NCBI GenBank assembly: GCA_024278935.1
Contig: JAJRSF010000030.1
Coordinates: 1 to 45,241 of the forward strand
Length of the DNA stretch: 45,241 nucleotides
From: Candidatus Zixiibacteriota bacterium
GTDB lineage: Bacteria > Zixibacteria > MSB-5A5 > GN15 > FEB-12
Direction: 5' to 3'
This document shows, piece by piece, positions 2,993 through 13,752 of this stretch. How positions within the stretch are numbered: the first letter of the stretch is position 1; the number at the start of each line of letters is the position of its first letter. The notes beneath the pieces were generated by a model. That model worked only from the letters and a program-made list of their open reading frames with translations, was not told the DNA's origin and made no database searches. The position numbers and the translations under genes are program-made.

Positions 2993-4507
2993 TTATTTTA
3001 GGAGCATGGTTTTGATTGATTTGGTTTGGTCTTCGTATGATACTTTGAAAAGATACATGCCCGATGACTGCTCGCTAGCATCCCAGTTGAGAGAATGTTC
3101 TCCTGCAGATTGGTTATTATCATAGAGGGTCGAAACTTTTTGACCAAGCATATTGTAAATGTCAACTGTGAGATGTCCGTTTTGTGGAATCGAATAATTG
3201 ATTGTTGTGGTTGGGTTAAAAGGATTCGGATAATTTTGCAAAAGAGTGAATTGCGTTGGAAGTTCAGGCGGAGGGTTTAAGACAAGCTCTTTGTCAAAAA
3301 GAACTGATTGTAAAAAGATATATGAAATCGGGTTATCATCAAAAAGTTCAGTGGCATAGGCATATGAAAGTCTGTCCTCAACTTCGTCATAGACAAAATC
3401 TGAAATTTCTGAGACTTTCCCTTTGAATGGAATTGTTACAGAATCTATAAACTGGAACTGGTCATCAAAACGCATGATAGTTCCATCGTTGTTTTCACCT
3501 ATGAGAATAGCAATGCAGTAGTCGATAGTTTGTAGTGGGATTATTTTTTTATATGATTGATCAGTATATAATGACAGGTCTAAAATATCTTCAAACCGCA
3601 TCGTTTCAAAATTAATTTTCTTCAATTGATTGCTTTGTCTTAAAGCAAAAACATAATCATCTTTAACTTTGCCAAGAAAAATATCATCCGGTTGTTGGTC
3701 GCTTTCGGTGACGTCATGTGAGTATAAAGAATAAATAGACTGGATTTTATTTTTATAAATGACATAGCCTTTATAGCCTGTTGCCCATTGGCTACAAGTA
3801 AGGTTCTCAAAGCTTGTGCAGAAGATCCATGACTTGACAATAAATAGAGAATCGCCGTAAGGCAAGATTGCGGTTTGTCCGTTTGCTGAGAAATGTAAAA
3901 TTGGTGAGTAGAGGTCATTGGATTCTAAGTCTAAGGAGCGTAAAAAATATTCATATTTATTATTGTTGGGATCGGGTAACTCATTTTTTAAAATCTGACA
4001 ATACGTGCGGTCTCCTGTTTGAGCAAACAAAGGTTTTCTATTATTCGGAGAACTAACGGCATAAAAGCTATGCATCTTATCAAGATTTTCTTCGGTAGGA
4101 ATATAGGTGTCGTATATAAGGAGCTTTTGAGTATACAAACTGTCGTGAGTGCGTTCATCTTCAAATTGATCATAATAGAACAGAATGTTTTTATTGCCAA
4201 AGTGATACATGGTAGGTAAAAGAGGGTTTTGCGTTGAATCAAAAAGGAAATATTCTTCGGTTGTGTTAAACTGTGGTTCGGTCTGTAGACGGATAGTTTT
4301 GATATTGTTGCCACTAGAACCATTGATATGATAGGTAAGGGTATACCCGCTTGAGTCAAACAATAAGTTTGGGGAGTGTTGGCTTTCTGAAAGATCAGAG
4401 AGAGATTGCCCTACAACCACCGGGTCTAAAAAAACTATTTCCTTGGCTGCTGCCGAAGCAATCAAAGTGAATAGGCATAAAAATAGATACAAAATAGTGC
4501 GTTTCAT
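2993..4507 (-). CDS. secreted protein with C-terminal sorting domain
   Basis: A 504-residue exported protein of unknown function. The start is placed at 4507, where MKRTILYLFLCLFTLIASAAA gives a typical signal peptide; the frame extends upstream to 4576 but would put 23 extra residues before it. The middle (about 25-410) has short repeating segments of beta type with many aromatic residues (YFLFDSTQNPLLPTMYHFG, YIFLQSVLF), compatible with a beta-propeller, but no family is recognised. The last 85 residues (FTLLQNYPNPFNPTTTINYS to KSIKTMLLK) are a full sorting/FlgD-like Ig domain, implying surface delivery by a type IX-like route. It has its own promoter and is transcribed toward cysE. Confidence 0.85.
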   Translation of the reverse strand: MKRTILYLFLCLFTLIASAAAKEIVFLDPVVVGQSLSDLSESQHSPNLLFDSSGYTLTYHINGSSGNNIKTIRLQTEPQFNTTEEYFLFDSTQNPLLPTMYHFGNKNILFYYDQFEDERTHDSLYTQKLLIYDTYIPTEENLDKMHSFYAVSSPNNRKPLFAQTGDRTYCQILKNELPDPNNNKYEYFLRSLDLESNDLYSPILHFSANGQTAILPYGDSLFIVKSWIFCTSFENLTCSQWATGYKGYVIYKNKIQSIYSLYSHDVTESDQQPDDIFLGKVKDDYVFALRQSNQLKKINFETMRFEDILDLSLYTDQSYKKIIPLQTIDYCIAILIGENNDGTIMRFDDQFQFIDSVTIPFKGKVSEISDFVYDEVEDRLSYAYATELFDDNPISYIFLQSVLFDKELVLNPPPELPTQFTLLQNYPNPFNPTTTINYSIPQNGHLTVDIYNMLGQKVSTLYDNNQSAGEHSLNWDASEQSSGMYLFKVSYEDQTKSIKTMLLK

Positions 4508-4548
4508 TTTATAATAAGCTCTTGTATAAGTTGTTATTGTTCGCAGGT

Positions 4549-4576
4549 AAGATATAAGATTGTACGAATCTGTCAA
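4549..4576 (-). promoter_or_regulatory. promoter of the minus-strand sorting-domain gene
   Basis: On the minus strand TTGACA (4576-4571), 16 bases and TATCTT (4554-4549) lie 42 bases before the chosen ATG. The boxes and spacing are the same as in the cys leader promoter. Confidence 0.6.
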
Positions 4577-4597: not shown

Positions 4598-5137
4598 TTA
4601 TTCATTCTCCAGTTCGATGCCCAGCGAGTCTGCCACCCGGTTGACATAACTAAAATAAGATGCTACCTGTGCAATGTCATGAATGCCAGTTTGCGTAAAA
4701 CCGTTCTCAAGAAGTGGAGCGAGATCCTCTTTTTTTATCGAGGCAGGCTGTTTGGCGATCTTTTCAGCATATGTTAAAATCAATTTGTCTTTATCAGTTA
4801 TATCCGCAGTCTTATAATCTTGCACAAGTTGATCTTTGAGAGATTCATCAACACCACCGAGAGAATGCAACGCATTCCAATGATGGGTGATTCAGTAGTG
4901 GCATTCATTTATTGCCGAGACAACAACGGCAATCATTTCACGCTGATGTCTGCTCAGTTCTGATTTTTGAAACATGATTGCACGGTAGAGATCGATATGG
5001 GCTTCCATCGCTTTTGGGTTTGACCCGGCAATACGAATTATGTTGGCAGGTATTTTTGTTTTACCGCCGTATCTGTCATAGAGCTTTTTGAGGTCATCGG
5101 ATGCATCGTCATAATCTATGTAGTCTATAAAAGCCAT
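4598..5137 (-). CDS. AhpD-like peroxidase-related enzyme, probable selenoprotein
   Basis: A 179-residue carboxymuconolactone decarboxylase/AhpD-family protein if the in-frame TGA at 4894-4892 is read as selenocysteine. Before it stands MAFIDYIDYDDASDDLKKLY and REMIAVVVSAINECHY; after it ITHHWNALHSLGG up to the family-typical ending NRVADSLGIELE. Both halves are in one frame with no indel. The TGA is residue 82 and takes the second Cys of the CxxCxxxH redox motif (E-C-H-Y-TGA-I-T-H-H), the catalytic cysteine of AhpD, with His at +4 present. The start at 5137 has GAAAGG seven bases upstream. It lies 23 bases after the alpha/beta-hydrolase-fold gene in the same unit. The alternative is a nonsense mutation or sequencing error, but the exact replacement of the catalytic Cys and the hairpin behind it argue for selenocysteine. 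The window holds no sel genes to confirm. Confidence 0.8.
4863..4894 (-). promoter_or_regulatory. candidate bacterial SECIS element
   Basis: Starting at the TGA (4894-4892), the mRNA has 20 nt and then loop GUU (4871-4869), closed by a perfect 6-bp stem GAATGC/GCATTC (4877-4863). A lower pairing CACC/GGTG is possible further out. A short loop with G as its first base, 16-37 nt after the UGA, agrees with the known description of bacterial SECIS elements. Pairings were found by eye. Confidence 0.62.
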
Positions 5138-5160
5138 GGGTCTGCCTTTCAAAGGAAATT

Positions 5161-6048
5161 CTATTTATTTAAATAATTAAGAATCAACGTATTAAGTTCT
5201 TCTTCTTTATAACTATGTAATCTCAGTTTTGTTTCATCTGAATTTTTTTCAAGCGTTTGTATTGCTTCGGTTTTGTCGTTTGTAAAAAGAGTCGTTGGGC
5301 AAGCAACTGCTTTGATGTTTTCAAGTTCTATATATGGAGGGGCGTAACCTGCATTTTTATCATACCACCAATACATGACAGAGTTGTAAAAAGGGAACCA
5401 TATTGAGCCATGTTTTTCTTTGGCAGCTTCTATTATGTAGTCTGTAATTAGTAACGGTTCTATTGTGACTACTTTTTTTATTCTTTTGTCATCGTGTGCA
5501 ACAGCAAGGGCAGCATCGGCACCTAACCCGGTACCTACTATGTATAGAGGCGGATGTAAACGCCCGCGGATTTCAAGGTAGCTGATAAGTTCTTGCAAAT
5601 CGATTGCTTCTAATAAACCAAAGCCGTGATGTTTGCCGGATGACAGCCCGGTGGCTCTTTGATCGTAGGTGATGCAGTCGTATGAATTATTTATAAGCTC
5701 TTTAATTAAAGCAAGTTGGGTTGTGCTAGACTGCTCTGATGCCGGTATGACTATAACAGTTCCTTCGGTTGTGTCGGTAAGGCTGTCTGAAATTGAGAGA
5801 CAGGCAAGAGATGTGAGGGCATCGGTGTCAACTCGAAAACTGTCGACGAGCCATGTTGGGTTCTCAAAAGGTGTTATGTCGTTTTGTGCTAATGAATCGA
5901 CGTTGTATTCATCGAGATCTATTCTTGCAAATAAAGTGTCAGAATTTATGAGTGGGTAGACACCATAGGTTGCAATTAACACGATTACAATAATGATAAA
6001 TAAAATAGTTTTTATTGTTTCTTTGGTTTGCCAAGAAAGTTTTGCCAT
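5161..6048 (-). CDS. membrane-anchored alpha/beta-hydrolase-fold protein, nucleophile missing
   Basis: A 295-residue protein with an N-terminal anchor (TILFIIIVIVLIATYGVY, about residues 14-31) and an outward-facing alpha/beta-hydrolase-like domain. Fold landmarks are VIVIPASEQSSTTQLALIKE, then ITYDQRATGLSSG (the usual D-x-R-G-x-G-x-S-x-G turn) and LYIVGTGLGADAALAVAHDD in the nucleophile-elbow position. The elbow reads G-T-G-L-G instead of G-x-S-x-G, so the catalytic Ser is absent. The usual HG oxyanion-hole motif is also not seen. It may be a non-catalytic binding protein, or a hydrolase with relocated chemistry. It is the first gene of a two-gene unit with the AhpD-like selenoprotein candidate, suggesting a shared envelope or stress role (inference). 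Confidence 0.72.
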   Translation of the reverse strand: MAKLSWQTKETIKTILFIIIVIVLIATYGVYPLINSDTLFARIDLDEYNVDSLAQNDITPFENPTWLVDSFRVDTDALTSLACLSISDSLTDTTEGTVIVIPASEQSSTTQLALIKELINNSYDCITYDQRATGLSSGKHHGFGLLEAIDLQELISYLEIRGRLHPPLYIVGTGLGADAALAVAHDDKRIKKVVTIEPLLITDYIIEAAKEKHGSIWFPFYNSVMYWWYDKNAGYAPPYIELENIKAVACPTTLFTNDKTEAIQTLEKNSDETKLRLHSYKEEELNTLILNYLNK

Positions 6049-6848: not shown

Positions 6849-7946
6849 ATGACCTTTCCGCTTAGAGCTTGTAAGTTAATTTGTCTCGTCGTTATTATAT
6901 TTGTGACTATGATGTCATTTTCAACGACCGCAGAGGCTATTCCTAGCATTACAGTAAAAGTTGCTGACACTACAGCGATTCCCGGTTACCTAAACGCTAC
7001 AATTACAATTTTTATGGACAACCTTTTTGATGAGGTTGCTGCTTTCAATTTGTGGATTCAGCTAGAACCTCAAGACTTGATGGTTTTCAAAACAGACATC
7101 CTTACAGTTATAGACACTACCTATTGGGTATGTGATTCTCTCGATGCTATGTTGAATTGTGCTGACTCAACAAAAGTTGATTCTCTCTCTCCTTGGGAAA
7201 TGCAACATATTGGTGAGTTGCTGGTCGCTGTTGGTAGTTTTGATACAACCGGAACTTTGATCTCCGGATGGAAATATGTACAGACACGTTCGATCTCCGG
7301 AGTTGGTACTGATATCAATATTGTCGCTATCTCTGATTTTTCAAATGGCTCTCAAGTTCCTCCTATCCCAGCTGGTCAACAAGGCGGAGTTCTTCTACGA
7401 GTTCTTGCCGATATCTTCCCGATGGACGACACTGTAACCGAACGTACCGCAAACTTGATTGTGCAGACAACAACTGATCATTTCTCGATTTCTCGTCCTA
7501 ATGGCACTGCGATTAACTGGATGCCTTTTGAATATATTGATACCCTTTGTTATGAATGTACGGTGTTGGTTGGAGAAAATTGCTTAGAGTATACAAGAAT
7601 TGGCGGTAATTTTGATCCTTTATTATGCGATTCTATGCATATCTTTTTAGACACAACCTCCATTTGGGACTCGACCAATGTAGTTATAATCAACGGTTCT
7701 CTCACAAATCTTCTTTCGTTTGTATGTGGTAATTTAGACAGTGCTCCTGATGGCAATGTTGATATTTCGGATTTAATATTTATAGTAGACTTTATATTTG
7801 GTAGCCCAAAAGGTCCAGCCCCGGTTCCATATGAGGCGGGCAATGTTGATTGCTTGGGTGATATTGATATTTCAGATTTAATATTTTTAGTAGACTTTAT
7901 ATTTGGTAGTACTAAAGGTCCGGCACCTTGTACGACCTGCCCGTGA
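6849..7946 (+). CDS. secreted cohesin-like/dockerin protein
   Basis: A 365-residue exported protein. The signal peptide runs from residue 1 to about 30 (LICLVVIIFVTMMSFSTTAEA). Residues 33-235 form a beta-rich domain starting ITVKVADTTAIPGYLNATIT, with the look of cohesin-like binding modules. Residues 293-365 are two dockerin-like calcium-binding repeats: CGNLDSAPDGNVDISDLIFI and GNVDCLGDIDISDLIFLV, each followed by DFIFGS.KGPAP. There is no YPNPFNP sorting domain, so the dockerin pair is the C-terminus. GAAGGAG sits 5 bases before the ATG. Probable role: surface assembly by calcium-dependent protein-protein contacts (inference from domains). Confidence 0.82.
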   Translation: MTFPLRACKLICLVVIIFVTMMSFSTTAEAIPSITVKVADTTAIPGYLNATITIFMDNLFDEVAAFNLWIQLEPQDLMVFKTDILTVIDTTYWVCDSLDAMLNCADSTKVDSLSPWEMQHIGELLVAVGSFDTTGTLISGWKYVQTRSISGVGTDINIVAISDFSNGSQVPPIPAGQQGGVLLRVLADIFPMDDTVTERTANLIVQTTTDHFSISRPNGTAINWMPFEYIDTLCYECTVLVGENCLEYTRIGGNFDPLLCDSMHIFLDTTSIWDSTNVVIINGSLTNLLSFVCGNLDSAPDGNVDISDLIFIVDFIFGSPKGPAPVPYEAGNVDCLGDIDISDLIFLVDFIFGSTKGPAPCTTCP

Positions 7947-8279
7947 TATGACATTAAATAAAAAAACTTGGTGAAAATTTACAACATGACAAAACAAACA
8001 AAAAATAAAATAGAAAAACTTTTAGCTGACTTCTGTTTGAGGTCGGTTAGAACAAACTTTTTAAAACAGTGGAAAGGAGGACGTTTAAAAAAGAGGTTAA
8101 ACGCACACGCTTCTATAGTAGGACAAATAATGCACTCTTCTATAAACGTTTTAGATTTTCTAAAGGCTAGTTGGCTCTCGCCTGTGATTATTTCACAACG
8201 GTTCCCGAGGGGGAAAAAGAATGAATTATTATGTCTGTCACTCTTAATTGATAAAAACTTTAAGAATTAGGAGAAGAAA
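7947..8279 (+). other. intergenic leader with hairpins, no convincing gene
   Basis: A TTG-started frame at 7968-8270 has no homology or ribosome binding site and is composed of basic, AT-driven residues; I do not accept it as a gene. The stretch has an inverted repeat CGTTTAA/TTAAACG (8082-8103), repeated TTCTATA words and small hairpins TTAGA/TCTAA and GTGA/TCAC. It is probably the leader of the next gene. No terminator separates it from the dockerin protein gene upstream. Confidence 0.45.
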
Positions 8280-10781
8280 ATGAAGCGTATTTCATTTTTC
8301 TTAGCTCTTGCTTTAATTATCGCGTCATTTGGAATGGTTACAGCTAGTTCTATAACTATTGACAATATGACAGGTACATGGGATGATGCTGGTACAACTA
8401 AGCTAATTCCAGGTGTTGCTGTCGTCATGGATTTTCGTGCAACGAATACTGGCGACAAAGTAAAAGGTTTTACTAATCCATTCGTTATTTATGGACCTGC
8501 TTCTGGCTATACTCCAGCTGTTGGTGATACTATTTTAGCTGGTTTCACAGGCAACTGGGATCTCGGTCTTTTCATCGATCATTTGTCCGCAAATGGTTCC
8601 GGTGCTGATACTGTAAGATTCGGTGGCGCTATTATTGGTGGCGCTGGTTTCCCTATTGGATTTGACGATGTTCCATTTAGAATTTCTACTGGTGGTGTTG
8701 CCGAAGGTGAAACACTTTGTATTGATTCTCTATCTTATCCACAAAACGCATGGAAATGGGTTGATGCTACAGCTGGTGATGTTCCTCCAGATTTTGCTGG
8801 ACCTATCTGTTTCTTAGCAGAAATTCCTCCATGTTTACCTCCTTCATTTGATAATGATCGAACAACACTAACTGGTTCACATTGTGACGTTATGGTTTTT
8901 GACTTTGACGCTACATTGAATGCAACTAATCTTGACCCAGGTGTTCTTGTATTCTCAGCTGATGTAGGTACAATTGATCCAGCAACTGGTGCATGGTCTT
9001 ATGCTCCAACTCTTGGTGATGTTGGTATGTCTATGGCTGTTAATGTTACTATTGGTAACGGTCTTTGTGATGCAACTCATTCTGTGAACTTAGTATTCAC
9101 AAACGAAGCTCCTGTACTTGATTGTTCAGCTGCTCCAGCTAATGTTTCTGCTGGTACTGACACAGATGTTCAACTATCTGCTACAGACGACTGTGATCCA
9201 TTCACATATTCAGTTGTTTCTGGTCCAGCTACAGTTGATGCTAGCACTGGTCTTTTGACTATCAATGCTCCAGCTGATGTTAATGCTCAAGATATCGTTG
9301 TTGAAGTAACTGACGGTAACGCATCTTCAACTTGTACAATCAGCATTATTGCTACTGCTGGTTCTTTATATCAAGTTGAAATTCCTTGTCTTGGTGCTCC
9401 TGAAGGACCAATTTTCCAAGGTCAACATGCTTTATTACCTATCAACCTTACAACAGGTAATACAATTGACGGTTATGACCTATTAATCGGTTATGACAAC
9501 TCTGCTTTAAGCTTCCAAACAGCTACCCCTGGTGCTGATTTAGTTGCTGATGGTTGGGAATATTTCACATATCGTTATGGTGCCAATGGTAACTGTTCTA
9601 ACGCATGTCCTACTGGATTACTACGTTTAACAGCTATTGCTGAAACTAATAATGGTCCTAACCACCCAACACTTGACGGTGTTAATGAACTTGCTGTTCT
9701 TGATTTCTTAGTTACTAACGACCGTACTTTAGAATGTCAGGAAATTCCTGTACGTTTCTACTGGATGGATTGTGGTGACAACACTTTATCAGCTGACGGT
9801 GGTAACACACTTATCGTTTCTGAAATCGTTTATGACGGTGACGAAGTTTTATCCCCACCAAATGGTACAGAAATTCAAGATTTCTTCTATGGCTTCCCAA
9901 CATACTTCGGTACACAAGAATCATGTATCGTTCCTGTAGTTGGAAAACCAACTCCACTTCGTGACGCATCTTTCAACAACGGTTGTTTATTCATCGCTTG
10001 TGCTGATGCTATCGATTTACGTGGTGATCTTAACTTGAACAACGTTGCTAATGAAATTGCTGATGCTGTTTTATATAGTAACTACTTCATCTATGGTATT
10101 GGACAATTCTCTATCAATACTGAAGGTCAAATCGCTGCTTCCGACGTTAACGCTGACGGTCTTGCTTTATCAGTTGCTGATTTAGTATACTTGATTCGTA
10201 TCGTTGTTGGTGATGCTAACCCTTACCCTAAAACTTCTCCTGAAGCTGTTAATGCAACTATCGTTGAAAGCAACAATGTACTTTCTGTTGACGCAACAAT
10301 GGGTGCTGCTTTAGTAGTAATCGAAGGTAATGTAGTAGCTGATCTTAGAGCTGAAAACATGGAAATGATTTCTGCTTTTGACGGTGTTAACACTCGCGTG
10401 CTTATTTACTCACTCGATAACAACACTTTCTCAGGTGAATTCTTGAATGCTAATGGTACAGTTATCTCTACTGAACTTGCTTCAGCAACTGGTTCTACTG
10501 TTAACGCTAAGCTAATTCCAGGCAACTTTGAACTTGCTCAGAATTATCCTAATCCGTTTAACCCTAGCACAACTGTTGGTTTCTCAATTCCTTTCCAATC
10601 AGATGTAACTTTGACTATTTACAACGTAACAGGTCAAAAAGTAGCTGAATTCTCAGGTGCTTATACAGCTGGTTTCCATTCAATCGAATGGGATGCTTCT
10701 GCAAACGCTTCTGGTATCTATTTCTATAAATTAGATGCTAATAACTTTGCTGAAACTAAGAAAATGGTATTGTTGAAATAA
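8280..10781 (+). CDS. secreted multidomain surface protein with internal dockerin and C-terminal sorting domain
   Basis: An 833-residue exported protein. Order: signal peptide (1-22); an N-terminal domain (23 to about 178; ITIDNMTGTWDD ... GSGADTVRFGG ... TLCIDSLSYPQNAWKWV) shared with two smaller proteins at 34055 and 35044; Ig-like domains (about 180-365); a cohesin-like domain (about 370-575, IDGYDLLIGYDNSALSF); a dockerin-like pair (about 583-657, GDLNLNNVANEIADAVLYSN and ASDVNADGLALSVADLVYLI); and the sorting domain from NFELAQNYPNPFNPSTTVGF to the end, MVLLK. Cys residues are frequent in the middle, suggesting disulfides. Codon choice is strongly biased (Ala nearly always GCT, Gly GGT), unlike the neighbouring 11326 and 13804 genes, which hints at high expression. 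GGAG precedes the ATG, and a strong terminator follows. Confidence 0.85.
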   Translation: MKRISFFLALALIIASFGMVTASSITIDNMTGTWDDAGTTKLIPGVAVVMDFRATNTGDKVKGFTNPFVIYGPASGYTPAVGDTILAGFTGNWDLGLFIDHLSANGSGADTVRFGGAIIGGAGFPIGFDDVPFRISTGGVAEGETLCIDSLSYPQNAWKWVDATAGDVPPDFAGPICFLAEIPPCLPPSFDNDRTTLTGSHCDVMVFDFDATLNATNLDPGVLVFSADVGTIDPATGAWSYAPTLGDVGMSMAVNVTIGNGLCDATHSVNLVFTNEAPVLDCSAAPANVSAGTDTDVQLSATDDCDPFTYSVVSGPATVDASTGLLTINAPADVNAQDIVVEVTDGNASSTCTISIIATAGSLYQVEIPCLGAPEGPIFQGQHALLPINLTTGNTIDGYDLLIGYDNSALSFQTATPGADLVADGWEYFTYRYGANGNCSNACPTGLLRLTAIAETNNGPNHPTLDGVNELAVLDFLVTNDRTLECQEIPVRFYWMDCGDNTLSADGGNTLIVSEIVYDGDEVLSPPNGTEIQDFFYGFPTYFGTQESCIVPVVGKPTPLRDASFNNGCLFIACADAIDLRGDLNLNNVANEIADAVLYSNYFIYGIGQFSINTEGQIAASDVNADGLALSVADLVYLIRIVVGDANPYPKTSPEAVNATIVESNNVLSVDATMGAALVVIEGNVVADLRAENMEMISAFDGVNTRVLIYSLDNNTFSGEFLNANGTVISTELASATGSTVNAKLIPGNFELAQNYPNPFNPSTTVGFSIPFQSDVTLTIYNVTGQKVAEFSGAYTAGFHSIEWDASANASGIYFYKLDANNFAETKKMVLLK

Positions 10782-10808
10782 GCATTTTCATTTTAGATTT
10801 ATTTTATA

Positions 10809-10840
10809 CCCCGGGAAAGCTTACGCTTTTCCGGGGATTA
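10809..10840 (+). terminator. intrinsic terminator
   Basis: CCCCGGGAAAGC (10809-10820), loop TTAC and GCTTTTCCGGGG (10825-10836) form a 12-bp stem with one G-U pair, followed by ATTATTT. It begins 27 nt after the stop codon and ends the transcript of the preceding surface protein. Confidence 0.8.
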
Positions 10841-11325
10841 TTTACCTAAAGAAGTCAGGTTTATTAGATAATCCTGATAAAAAAAGATAAGAAATGACAA
10901 ATAGTTTTTGTAGTAGACAAGATTTGAAAACAAATTTTTTCTTAATAGGGATATTAAGAGATTTAACACGGATGTATCATTTTTGGGCTGGTTTCAAGGA
11001 TATGAGAGACCGGTATGCATTTAATTGCGACGATTCGCGATTAAACTGTCAGGGATCGAGGGGATTCTCACTTACTTCATTACACAACTCTGAAATTCTT
11101 TCAGGAGACAAAACTACCGCCAAATAGCTAAGTTGATAAAGAACTTGTATGTAACGAATTAACAATTTTTAAAAAGGATTACTTCGGAATTACCGTAACT
11201 GAAGAAGCAATTTGAAGATAATGCAGGTCGACAGAAGAATTGTCGGCAGAAAAGTAATAATTGGTCTCAAAATTGCTCAATTAGATAATGATATGATATA
11301 CTTAGCCTATTTACACAAGAAAATA
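10841..11325 (+). other. intergenic leader with hairpins, no convincing gene
   Basis: An ATG frame at 10894-11127 lacks a ribosome binding site and homology. Two clear hairpins are present: TTTAAT-t-GCG / CGC-g-ATTAAA (11020-11045) and CTGAAA-TTC-TTTCAG (11090-11104). The region probably forms the 5' leader of the three-gene surface unit that follows. I could not assign a promoter with confidence. Confidence 0.4.
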
Positions 11326-13752
11326 ATGCAGCATATTGCCTTATTATTAGGGATATTGCTCTACTTTGGGGTACAAAGCTCTGCTTTCGGGCAGGTCGAT
11401 TCCTTTGGTACGTTGGATAGAATGTATATTGAAAAGGCTTCGGCTATAGCTGGAAGTGATGTTGTAGTTAGTTTTTATATGCAAAACGATGAAACTATTT
11501 CATCTGGTTCCGTTCCTTTGACTTATAACACAGGTTATCTGACATTGAATTCGATAGATTTTACAGGTTCACGAATAGATTATATCGCTAATAAGATGGT
11601 GACACCATCGCAAGCTGTTGATATAGACGGACATTTCCTGGTAACTTTCTTTACCTTAAGTGAAGATCCGGTTGTAGCAGGTGATGGACTTCTGTTTACA
11701 GCCCATTTTACCCTTGATGATTCCGCCTCAAATGGTGATCTGTTTGCTATTGATACTTTATTCTACCCACCGGGTGGAGAAATGATATTTGTCGAAGCAA
11801 CCCAGGCAGTAATAATTCGACCTCAGTTTGATGCCGGCTCTGTGGCAGTAGAAAAAGAAAATTTTGTTCCATTGATTTCTGCGACAACATCGGAATCAGT
11901 TTTAGAAGGTGAAAATTTGAGCTTTGTTGTTTCAGCCTCTGATGCCAATAATGATTCTTTAGTATTTGTCTGCTCAAATAAACCAACAGGTGCTATTTTT
12001 GAAATGATTGACAACAACTCGGCACGTTTTAGCTGGGATCCTGATTTTGTCGGACCATATTCATCTGATGGTTCTCCATTTAAATTAAAGCTTCTTGTCT
12101 CAGACGGTAGCTCATCGGCTGAAACCGAAATGCTCATTAATGTTGTCAATAAAAATAGAAAACCTACAATTTCAACTGTGTCAAATATGGATTATGAATC
12201 CGGCGATTTAGTCCAACTTGTGATTGATGCTTCCGATGCCGATTTTGATATGCTGACTTGGGAAACAAGTTTGATTCCGAATGATGCTATTTTCACCGAA
12301 GGAGCCCAAGCAACTTTTAACTGGCAGACTACTATTGATGATACCGGAAGTTTCCCTGTTCAATTTATTGTGACTGACCCATCCGGTTTTTCCGATACGC
12401 TTGCAAGTGCTATTTATCTTACCGCAGTAGAATTGTATGAACTTTCAATTACTTCTGCTGAAGGTTCTCCCGATGAAAAAGTTTCTGTTAGCTTGAATTT
12501 AGATAACAAGTTGCCAATCGGTTCATTTATTCTGCTTGTGCATTATGACCCATCGGCGTTGTCATTGATTTCTGTGAGTAATGATACCAGCCGGACATCA
12601 TCGTTTGAGTATTTTAGCTATACAAATAATGCTGATAACGCAGCCGGCAATATTCGTATTGTTGGAATTGCTGATCTGTCAGGTAATAATAATTCGTATC
12701 TTGCCAGTGGTACAGGTTCGATAGTTGATTTCGATTTTAGAATTTTTGGAAATTTAAGTTTAAGCGGGCTTAATATCCCGATGACATTTAAGTTTATAGA
12801 TATGGACGACAATACATTTACAGATTCTCTTGGTGTGAAAGTTGTTCAGGAAGCTATTACGTATATCAATGGTTCGATACTTATAACATCTTTAGGTGAA
12901 ATCAATACCGGTGATATAAACTTAAACGGTATCGCCTTTGAGATTAGCGATGCTATTTACTTTACCAATTATTTTATGAATCCGTTTACGGCACCGTTTA
13001 ACCCGCTTCAATATGCCAACTCAGATATTAACCATGATAATATTGTTGCTTCGATTGCTGATTTGGTTGCTTTGATAAATGTTATTACAAAGGGTGGTCA
13101 AGGTAAGATTGCTGTTGGAGAAGGAAACAACTTAAACGCTACCCTGTTAACTGAAAAAAATGATGATGGTATTAGAATCAGTTATGAATCTGATTTTGAA
13201 ATCGGTGGTCTTCTGATAACTTTTGCGGGTGACGATGTAACAGCTGATAATGTTTTAAATCTCACCGATAATATGACTCTTGATTTTGCATCGGGTGCTG
13301 AATCAAACCGTATATTAGTTTATTCTCTTGATGGTAATCAAATGCCTGACGGGAACCATGCTTTTGTACAGCTTGATTTAGAATCTGATATAGAGATTTT
13401 ATCTGTCGAGGTTTCATCATCAGATGGTGTCTTAGCTACTGTTGAGACAAGCCACAAAGAGATGACTCTTCCGACTACATTTACCTTATCACAAAACTAT
13501 CCAAACCCGTTTAATCCGTCTACCCAGATAAGTTTCTCATTGCCGGAACAAACCGATGTAAGCCTAGATGTATATAACGTGCTTGGTAAAAAAGTACGTG
13601 TGTTAATAAATGAATCATTTGCTGCCGGGAACCATACCGTGGTGTGGGATGGTCGCAATGATGCCGGAGCAGAAGTAGCTTCGGGGATTTATTTTTATCG
13701 TATGATGACAGAGATGAATCATCAAACTAAGAAAATGCTTTTCTTAAAATAG
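11326..13752 (+). CDS. secreted cohesin-like/cadherin-like/dockerin protein with sorting domain
   Basis: An 808-residue exported protein. The ATG at 11326 is chosen because MQHIALLLGILLYFGVQSSAFGQ is the signal peptide; the frame is open from 11212, which would add 38 odd residues. Order: a cohesin-like domain (about 28-170, YIEKASAIAGSDVVVSFYMQ); two cadherin/Ig-like domains (about 180-365, SFVVSASDANNDSLVFVCSN); a second cohesin-like domain (about 370-515, GSFILLVHYDPSALSLISVS); a dockerin-like pair (about 525-590, TGDINLNGIAFEISDAIYFT and NSDINHDNIVASIADLVALI); and the sorting domain TFTLSQNYPNPFNPSTQISF to MLFLK. It is the first gene of a 15.6-kb unit that continues with the next two genes. 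Confidence 0.83.
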   Translation: MQHIALLLGILLYFGVQSSAFGQVDSFGTLDRMYIEKASAIAGSDVVVSFYMQNDETISSGSVPLTYNTGYLTLNSIDFTGSRIDYIANKMVTPSQAVDIDGHFLVTFFTLSEDPVVAGDGLLFTAHFTLDDSASNGDLFAIDTLFYPPGGEMIFVEATQAVIIRPQFDAGSVAVEKENFVPLISATTSESVLEGENLSFVVSASDANNDSLVFVCSNKPTGAIFEMIDNNSARFSWDPDFVGPYSSDGSPFKLKLLVSDGSSSAETEMLINVVNKNRKPTISTVSNMDYESGDLVQLVIDASDADFDMLTWETSLIPNDAIFTEGAQATFNWQTTIDDTGSFPVQFIVTDPSGFSDTLASAIYLTAVELYELSITSAEGSPDEKVSVSLNLDNKLPIGSFILLVHYDPSALSLISVSNDTSRTSSFEYFSYTNNADNAAGNIRIVGIADLSGNNNSYLASGTGSIVDFDFRIFGNLSLSGLNIPMTFKFIDMDDNTFTDSLGVKVVQEAITYINGSILITSLGEINTGDINLNGIAFEISDAIYFTNYFMNPFTAPFNPLQYANSDINHDNIVASIADLVALINVITKGGQGKIAVGEGNNLNATLLTEKNDDGIRISYESDFEIGGLLITFAGDDVTADNVLNLTDNMTLDFASGAESNRILVYSLDGNQMPDGNHAFVQLDLESDIEILSVEVSSSDGVLATVETSHKEMTLPTTFTLSQNYPNPFNPSTQISFSLPEQTDVSLDVYNVLGKKVRVLINESFAAGNHTVVWDGRNDAGAEVASGIYFYRMMTEMNHQTKKMLFLK

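Follow-up and report, generated by a model that had tools for sequence, protein, structure and literature searches.

How should a gene for an AhpD-like enzyme be read when a TGA interrupts its frame exactly at the catalytic CxxC motif? The question is raised by a 45,241-nucleotide stretch of DNA (the window, here meaning the whole stretch analysed), which forms contig 30 in the genome (3.4 Mb, 95% complete) of an uncultured member of the Zixiibacteriota. On its minus strand a gene runs from an ATG at 5137 to a TAA at 4600-4598 (4598..5137), encoding 179 amino acids if TGA is counted as selenocysteine (Sec). A likely Shine-Dalgarno sequence, GAAAGG, can be read 7 nt 5' of the ATG (5145..5150, minus strand). 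The frame holds one stop only, the TGA at 4891-4889, which occupies the second position of the motif C-H-Y-U-I-T-H-H, just where the original prediction had placed it. Standard ORF calling reports two fragments, of 86 and 90 aa, in place of one gene, and automated annotation would in this way cut an active-site enzyme into two. The reading favoured here with high confidence, on the evidence of sequence comparison, is that of an AhpD-like (TIGR01926, CMD-fold) thiol/selenol oxidoreductase, in which Sec would be inserted by means of SelB and an in-frame stem-loop 20 nt downstream of the codon.

The 179-residue product matches TIGR01926 with 145.4 bits against a curated cut-off of 81.8, and PF02627 (CMD) with 50.8 bits against a cut-off of 23. 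Its best solved relative, PDB 3c1l (E 3.7e-28), aligns over residues 17-179 and thus spans both sides of the TGA, and the TGA codon itself aligns with the second Cys of C-x-x-C in 3c1l as well as in 2pfx. Family homology continuing across the codon, as first proposed from the letters of the DNA, is confirmed by all three alignments (PF02627, TIGR01926 and 3c1l). The model NF041238, AhpD_rel_CFYUT (seleno)protein, describes a related CxxU protein and is matched with 73 bits over its C-terminal half; this score is far under the cut-off of 175, and the N-terminal half of the model is absent from the present protein. A blastn search of plasmids returned no match.

The TGA is kept among homologues. 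Among the 30 relative loci read, the window's own and 25 others share it at the identical codon (26 of 30), while the remaining four have Cys at the site within a C-x-Y-C motif, as CEYC or CDYC. Scanning genome contigs with a single protein query produced no matches and with an alignment query 473, and the best 80 of these 473, which are named homologues and not a census and which include a few of the same genomes as the 30 loci, have TGA without exception (80/80). The choice between Cys and TGA that the original prediction left to an alignment of homologues thus falls largely to TGA. The closest homologues among these best 80 of 473 are all Sec forms and belong to many phyla, being distributed over Zixiibacteriota, Gemmatimonadota, Acidobacteriota, Planctomycetota, KSB1, Calditrichota, Chloroflexota and Halanaerobiales. 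Recurrence at this exact position in both samples excludes chance or sequencing error as the origin of the TGA. In an unrooted tree, which does not fix the direction of change between Sec and Cys, the four Cys proteins cluster together next to Sec branches. Within the genus, dN is 0.13-0.30 and dS mostly >1.2 both upstream and downstream of the codon, rates which indicate that purifying selection acts on both sides of it.

The coding sequence after the TGA carries a second layer of information. A bSECIS-like hairpin, GGAATGC-GTT-GCATTCT, lies at 4859..4875 on the minus strand with its loop 20 nt after the UGA; a 6-bp hairpin with a G-first loop had been claimed at this distance, and the stem proves to be 7 bp long and topped by a GUU triloop. 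The published bSECIS model (PMC13188914 Fig. 2A) describes a loop of 3-9 nt with G in the first two loop positions, an upper stem of 4-16 bp, a distance of 16-37 nt from the UGA and an MFE <= -7.5, and the hairpin falls within all of these limits, with its 7 bp, its loop GUU closed by C-G and its 20 nt from the UGA. The energy of the hairpin region is -16 kcal/mol (59-66 nt stretch). Folded alone, the window hairpin is only modestly unusual (z -1.88). In an alignment of 20 genomes, 99.3% of hairpin cells are paired, versus 43-56% for slid partners, and three pairs have changed on both sides, a level of covariation reached by 0 of 500 shuffles; independent events are few, since some of the paired changes track a single Asn/His to Thr/Arg split among relatives. 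The loop codons GCG (Ala) and TTG (Leu) are the same in 19/19 genomes. Because nearly all other invariant degenerate residues in these 19 genomes use several codons (the exception is the TAC just before the UGA), the frozen GCG TTG shows that the RNA is constrained here and not the protein. The alignment shows plainly how an RNA signal can be carried inside coding sequence, and the hairpin that had been suspected to be a bacterial SECIS both conforms to the published model and covaries. No hairpin of this kind is present at the same site in the four Cys homologues. An Rfam scan of the window matched no RNA family. Register and sequence of the putative SECIS hairpin differ between clades (L045, L049, L162 and others versus L020-L039), with the protein motif unchanged: depending on clade, the UGA and the loop are about 16 or 20 nt apart, and one shifted example, ACGGAG-CGGGU-CUCCGU, has its loop 16 nt away.

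The host also appears equipped to decode such a signal. Its genome contains tRNA-Sec (64.5 bits, anticodon TCA), SelB (314 bits), SelA (505 bits) and SelD (372 bits), the last with an active-site UGA of its own in VSCAGUASKL. All four components sought in the genome were therefore found, among them selB and tRNA-Sec, on which the original prediction was to stand or fall, and the finding documents a Sec-decoding lineage. A second AhpD-like TIGR01926 selenoprotein is encoded in the same genome (L083, G000:C19:83229-83723, minus strand; 118.7 bits), with the motif C-V-H-U and a possible hairpin bearing a GGUC loop. With homology, hairpin and machinery genes taken together, Sec insertion at the UGA of the window gene is very likely. 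Once a ribosome reached this codon, the in-frame stem-loop would recruit SelB with Sec-tRNA-Sec, and Sec would be placed where CxxC has its second Cys.

The alternative that survives best grants Sec insertion to the relatives and denies it to this one population, in which SelA would be truncated by a real nonsense codon. SelA of the window's genome (G000, C64) does have an in-frame TGA at residue 331 (L018:2470-2472), a residue for which nearly every relative examined has Leu (TTA in G003), and this TGA is followed by no SECIS-like hairpin; SelA is free of stops in every one of the listed relatives. Should this TGA be genuine instead of an error of the assembly, the population might be hampered in making Sec, with the relatives unaffected. 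However, the remaining Sec genes are intact, SelA stays well conserved in frame past the TGA, in its C-terminal part, the UGA and hairpin of the AhpD-like gene are both preserved, and a one-base consensus error is possible in a draft assembly, so that such a loss of function seems quite improbable. A single wrong base or a local nonsense mutation is the likely cause of the SelA TGA, and a role as a regulatory recoding site is unlikely. This TGA was also considered as a Sec site in its own right and rejected, given that the position is Leu, not Cys, in almost all relatives and that shuffled sequences fold as well as the stretch downstream of it.

There is even less to recommend the TGA of the AhpD-like gene as an ordinary stop or nonsense mutation, which would leave a pseudogene or two split ORFs. 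The two pieces returned by mechanical ORF calling are what one would then expect to see, but the same TGA is common to dozens of genomes in many phyla, selection maintains the protein on either side of it, the hairpin beyond it covaries, and the downstream half has no Shine-Dalgarno sequence or ATG near the TGA; we regard this possibility as very remote. It is just as hard to credit that suppression or a recoded genetic code gives the TGA a different amino acid, for although an isolated TGA also occurs at a conserved Leu of SelA, that TGA is unique among relatives and lacks a hairpin, the homologues without TGA have Cys at the AhpD site, genes of the Sec machinery are present in the genome, and SelB and most window genes are open under table 11.

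An AhpD-like protein with Sec in its active site can be compared with characterised Cys forms. The Cys relative PA0269 of Pseudomonas is a weak, thiol-dependent hydroperoxidase with a proton relay of Glu36, Cys48, Tyr50, Cys51 and His55 (PMC3141380), and the E, C, Y, U and H of the Zixiibacteriota protein match the spacing of these relay residues. M. tuberculosis AhpD and PA0269 (PMC3141380) share with it the CMD fold and a Glu/Cys/His-or-Tyr/Cys/His relay; they differ in having Cys where Sec stands here, and in the present case the gene neighbours that recur or were tested include no recognised peroxiredoxin or ahpC. The activity is most likely that of a selenol/thiol pair reducing a peroxide or a redox partner. 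Catalysis would proceed through AhpD's Glu/Cys/Tyr/Cys/His relay, the selenol and its partner Cys probably reducing a peroxide or a peroxiredoxin-type partner, a reaction and a substrate that we infer. The reaction is uncertain because the peroxidase activity of PA0269 is weak.

Selenoproteins of this kind have a history. The first AhpD-like examples came from the Sargasso Sea study of 2005, with 27 sequences and a SECIS figure (PMC1088965); the GOS study counted hundreds, as 'AhpD-like 1/2' (PMC2398784); and in a 2026 review 'AhpD-like protein, TIGR01926, CxxU' appears among the selenoprotein families, with the Sargasso Sea study given as source (PMC13188914). The premise that AhpD-like proteins are among the known bacterial selenoprotein families is thus borne out (PMC13188914, PMC1088965). 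The window gene resembles the catalogued family in its HMM, in the predicted Sec at the same CxxU position and in the bSECIS-like hairpin directly downstream, and differs in its host, an uncultured member of the Zixiibacteriota, and, in part of the family there, in a pairing with a hydrolase-fold gene. It is a well-supported member of a bacterial selenoprotein family that is widespread and was catalogued before, and existing knowledge of selenoprotein families is left unchanged. Since the CxxU form of TIGR01926 is catalogued and Sec forms are widespread beyond this lineage, the novelty once proposed is unsupported. The papers searched contained neither a record for this lineage nor the pairing with a hydrolase-fold gene.

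The neighbour in question lies 23 nt 5' of the selenoprotein ATG (5161..6048, minus strand) and encodes a membrane-anchored alpha/beta-hydrolase-fold protein whose Pfam matches are just under cut-off. Its description as a degenerate hydrolase is right for the window's genome, in which GTGLG replaces GxSxG and Gly fills the nucleophile slot. Over 33 sequences this slot holds Gly in 12, Ser in 10, Asp in 4, Glu in 3, Ala in 3 and Gln in 1. The family (window 5161-6048, homologues L100-L129) is widespread in the lineage, often with the nucleophile Ser replaced. The gene is closely 5' of the selenoprotein gene in six relatives and farther away or elsewhere in others, and the genus mate G002 has the selenoprotein without this neighbour. 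That the two genes form a redox unit in Zixiibacteriota, with a pseudo-hydrolase that has lost its nucleophile tethering or presenting the substrate, is a doubtful proposition.

Other neighbours recur. A flavodiiron protein is encoded directly 5' of the selenoprotein in G001, G033 and two more relatives, and flavodiiron genes lie upstream of it in several Zixiibacteriota (L089:2769-3947, L095:8572-9756, L134, L142); a literature search found no link between AhpD-like selenoproteins and flavodiiron proteins. Genes for an ECF sigma factor and a zf-HC2 protein adjoin it in G059 and G097 (L093:6519-7438, L097:3956-4921). The neighbours in some relatives give a hint of oxidative or nitrosative stress. 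In Gemmatimonadota, the Sec AhpD-like gene sits beside histidine ammonia-lyase-like (19 loci) and urocanase-like (11 loci) genes, neighbours that were assigned by eye (L148, L153-L156, L159-L161 and others). Around the gene in the window itself (2993-4576 and 6849-13752) are genes for several secreted proteins, which carry sorting tails at the C terminus and dockerin-like repeats.
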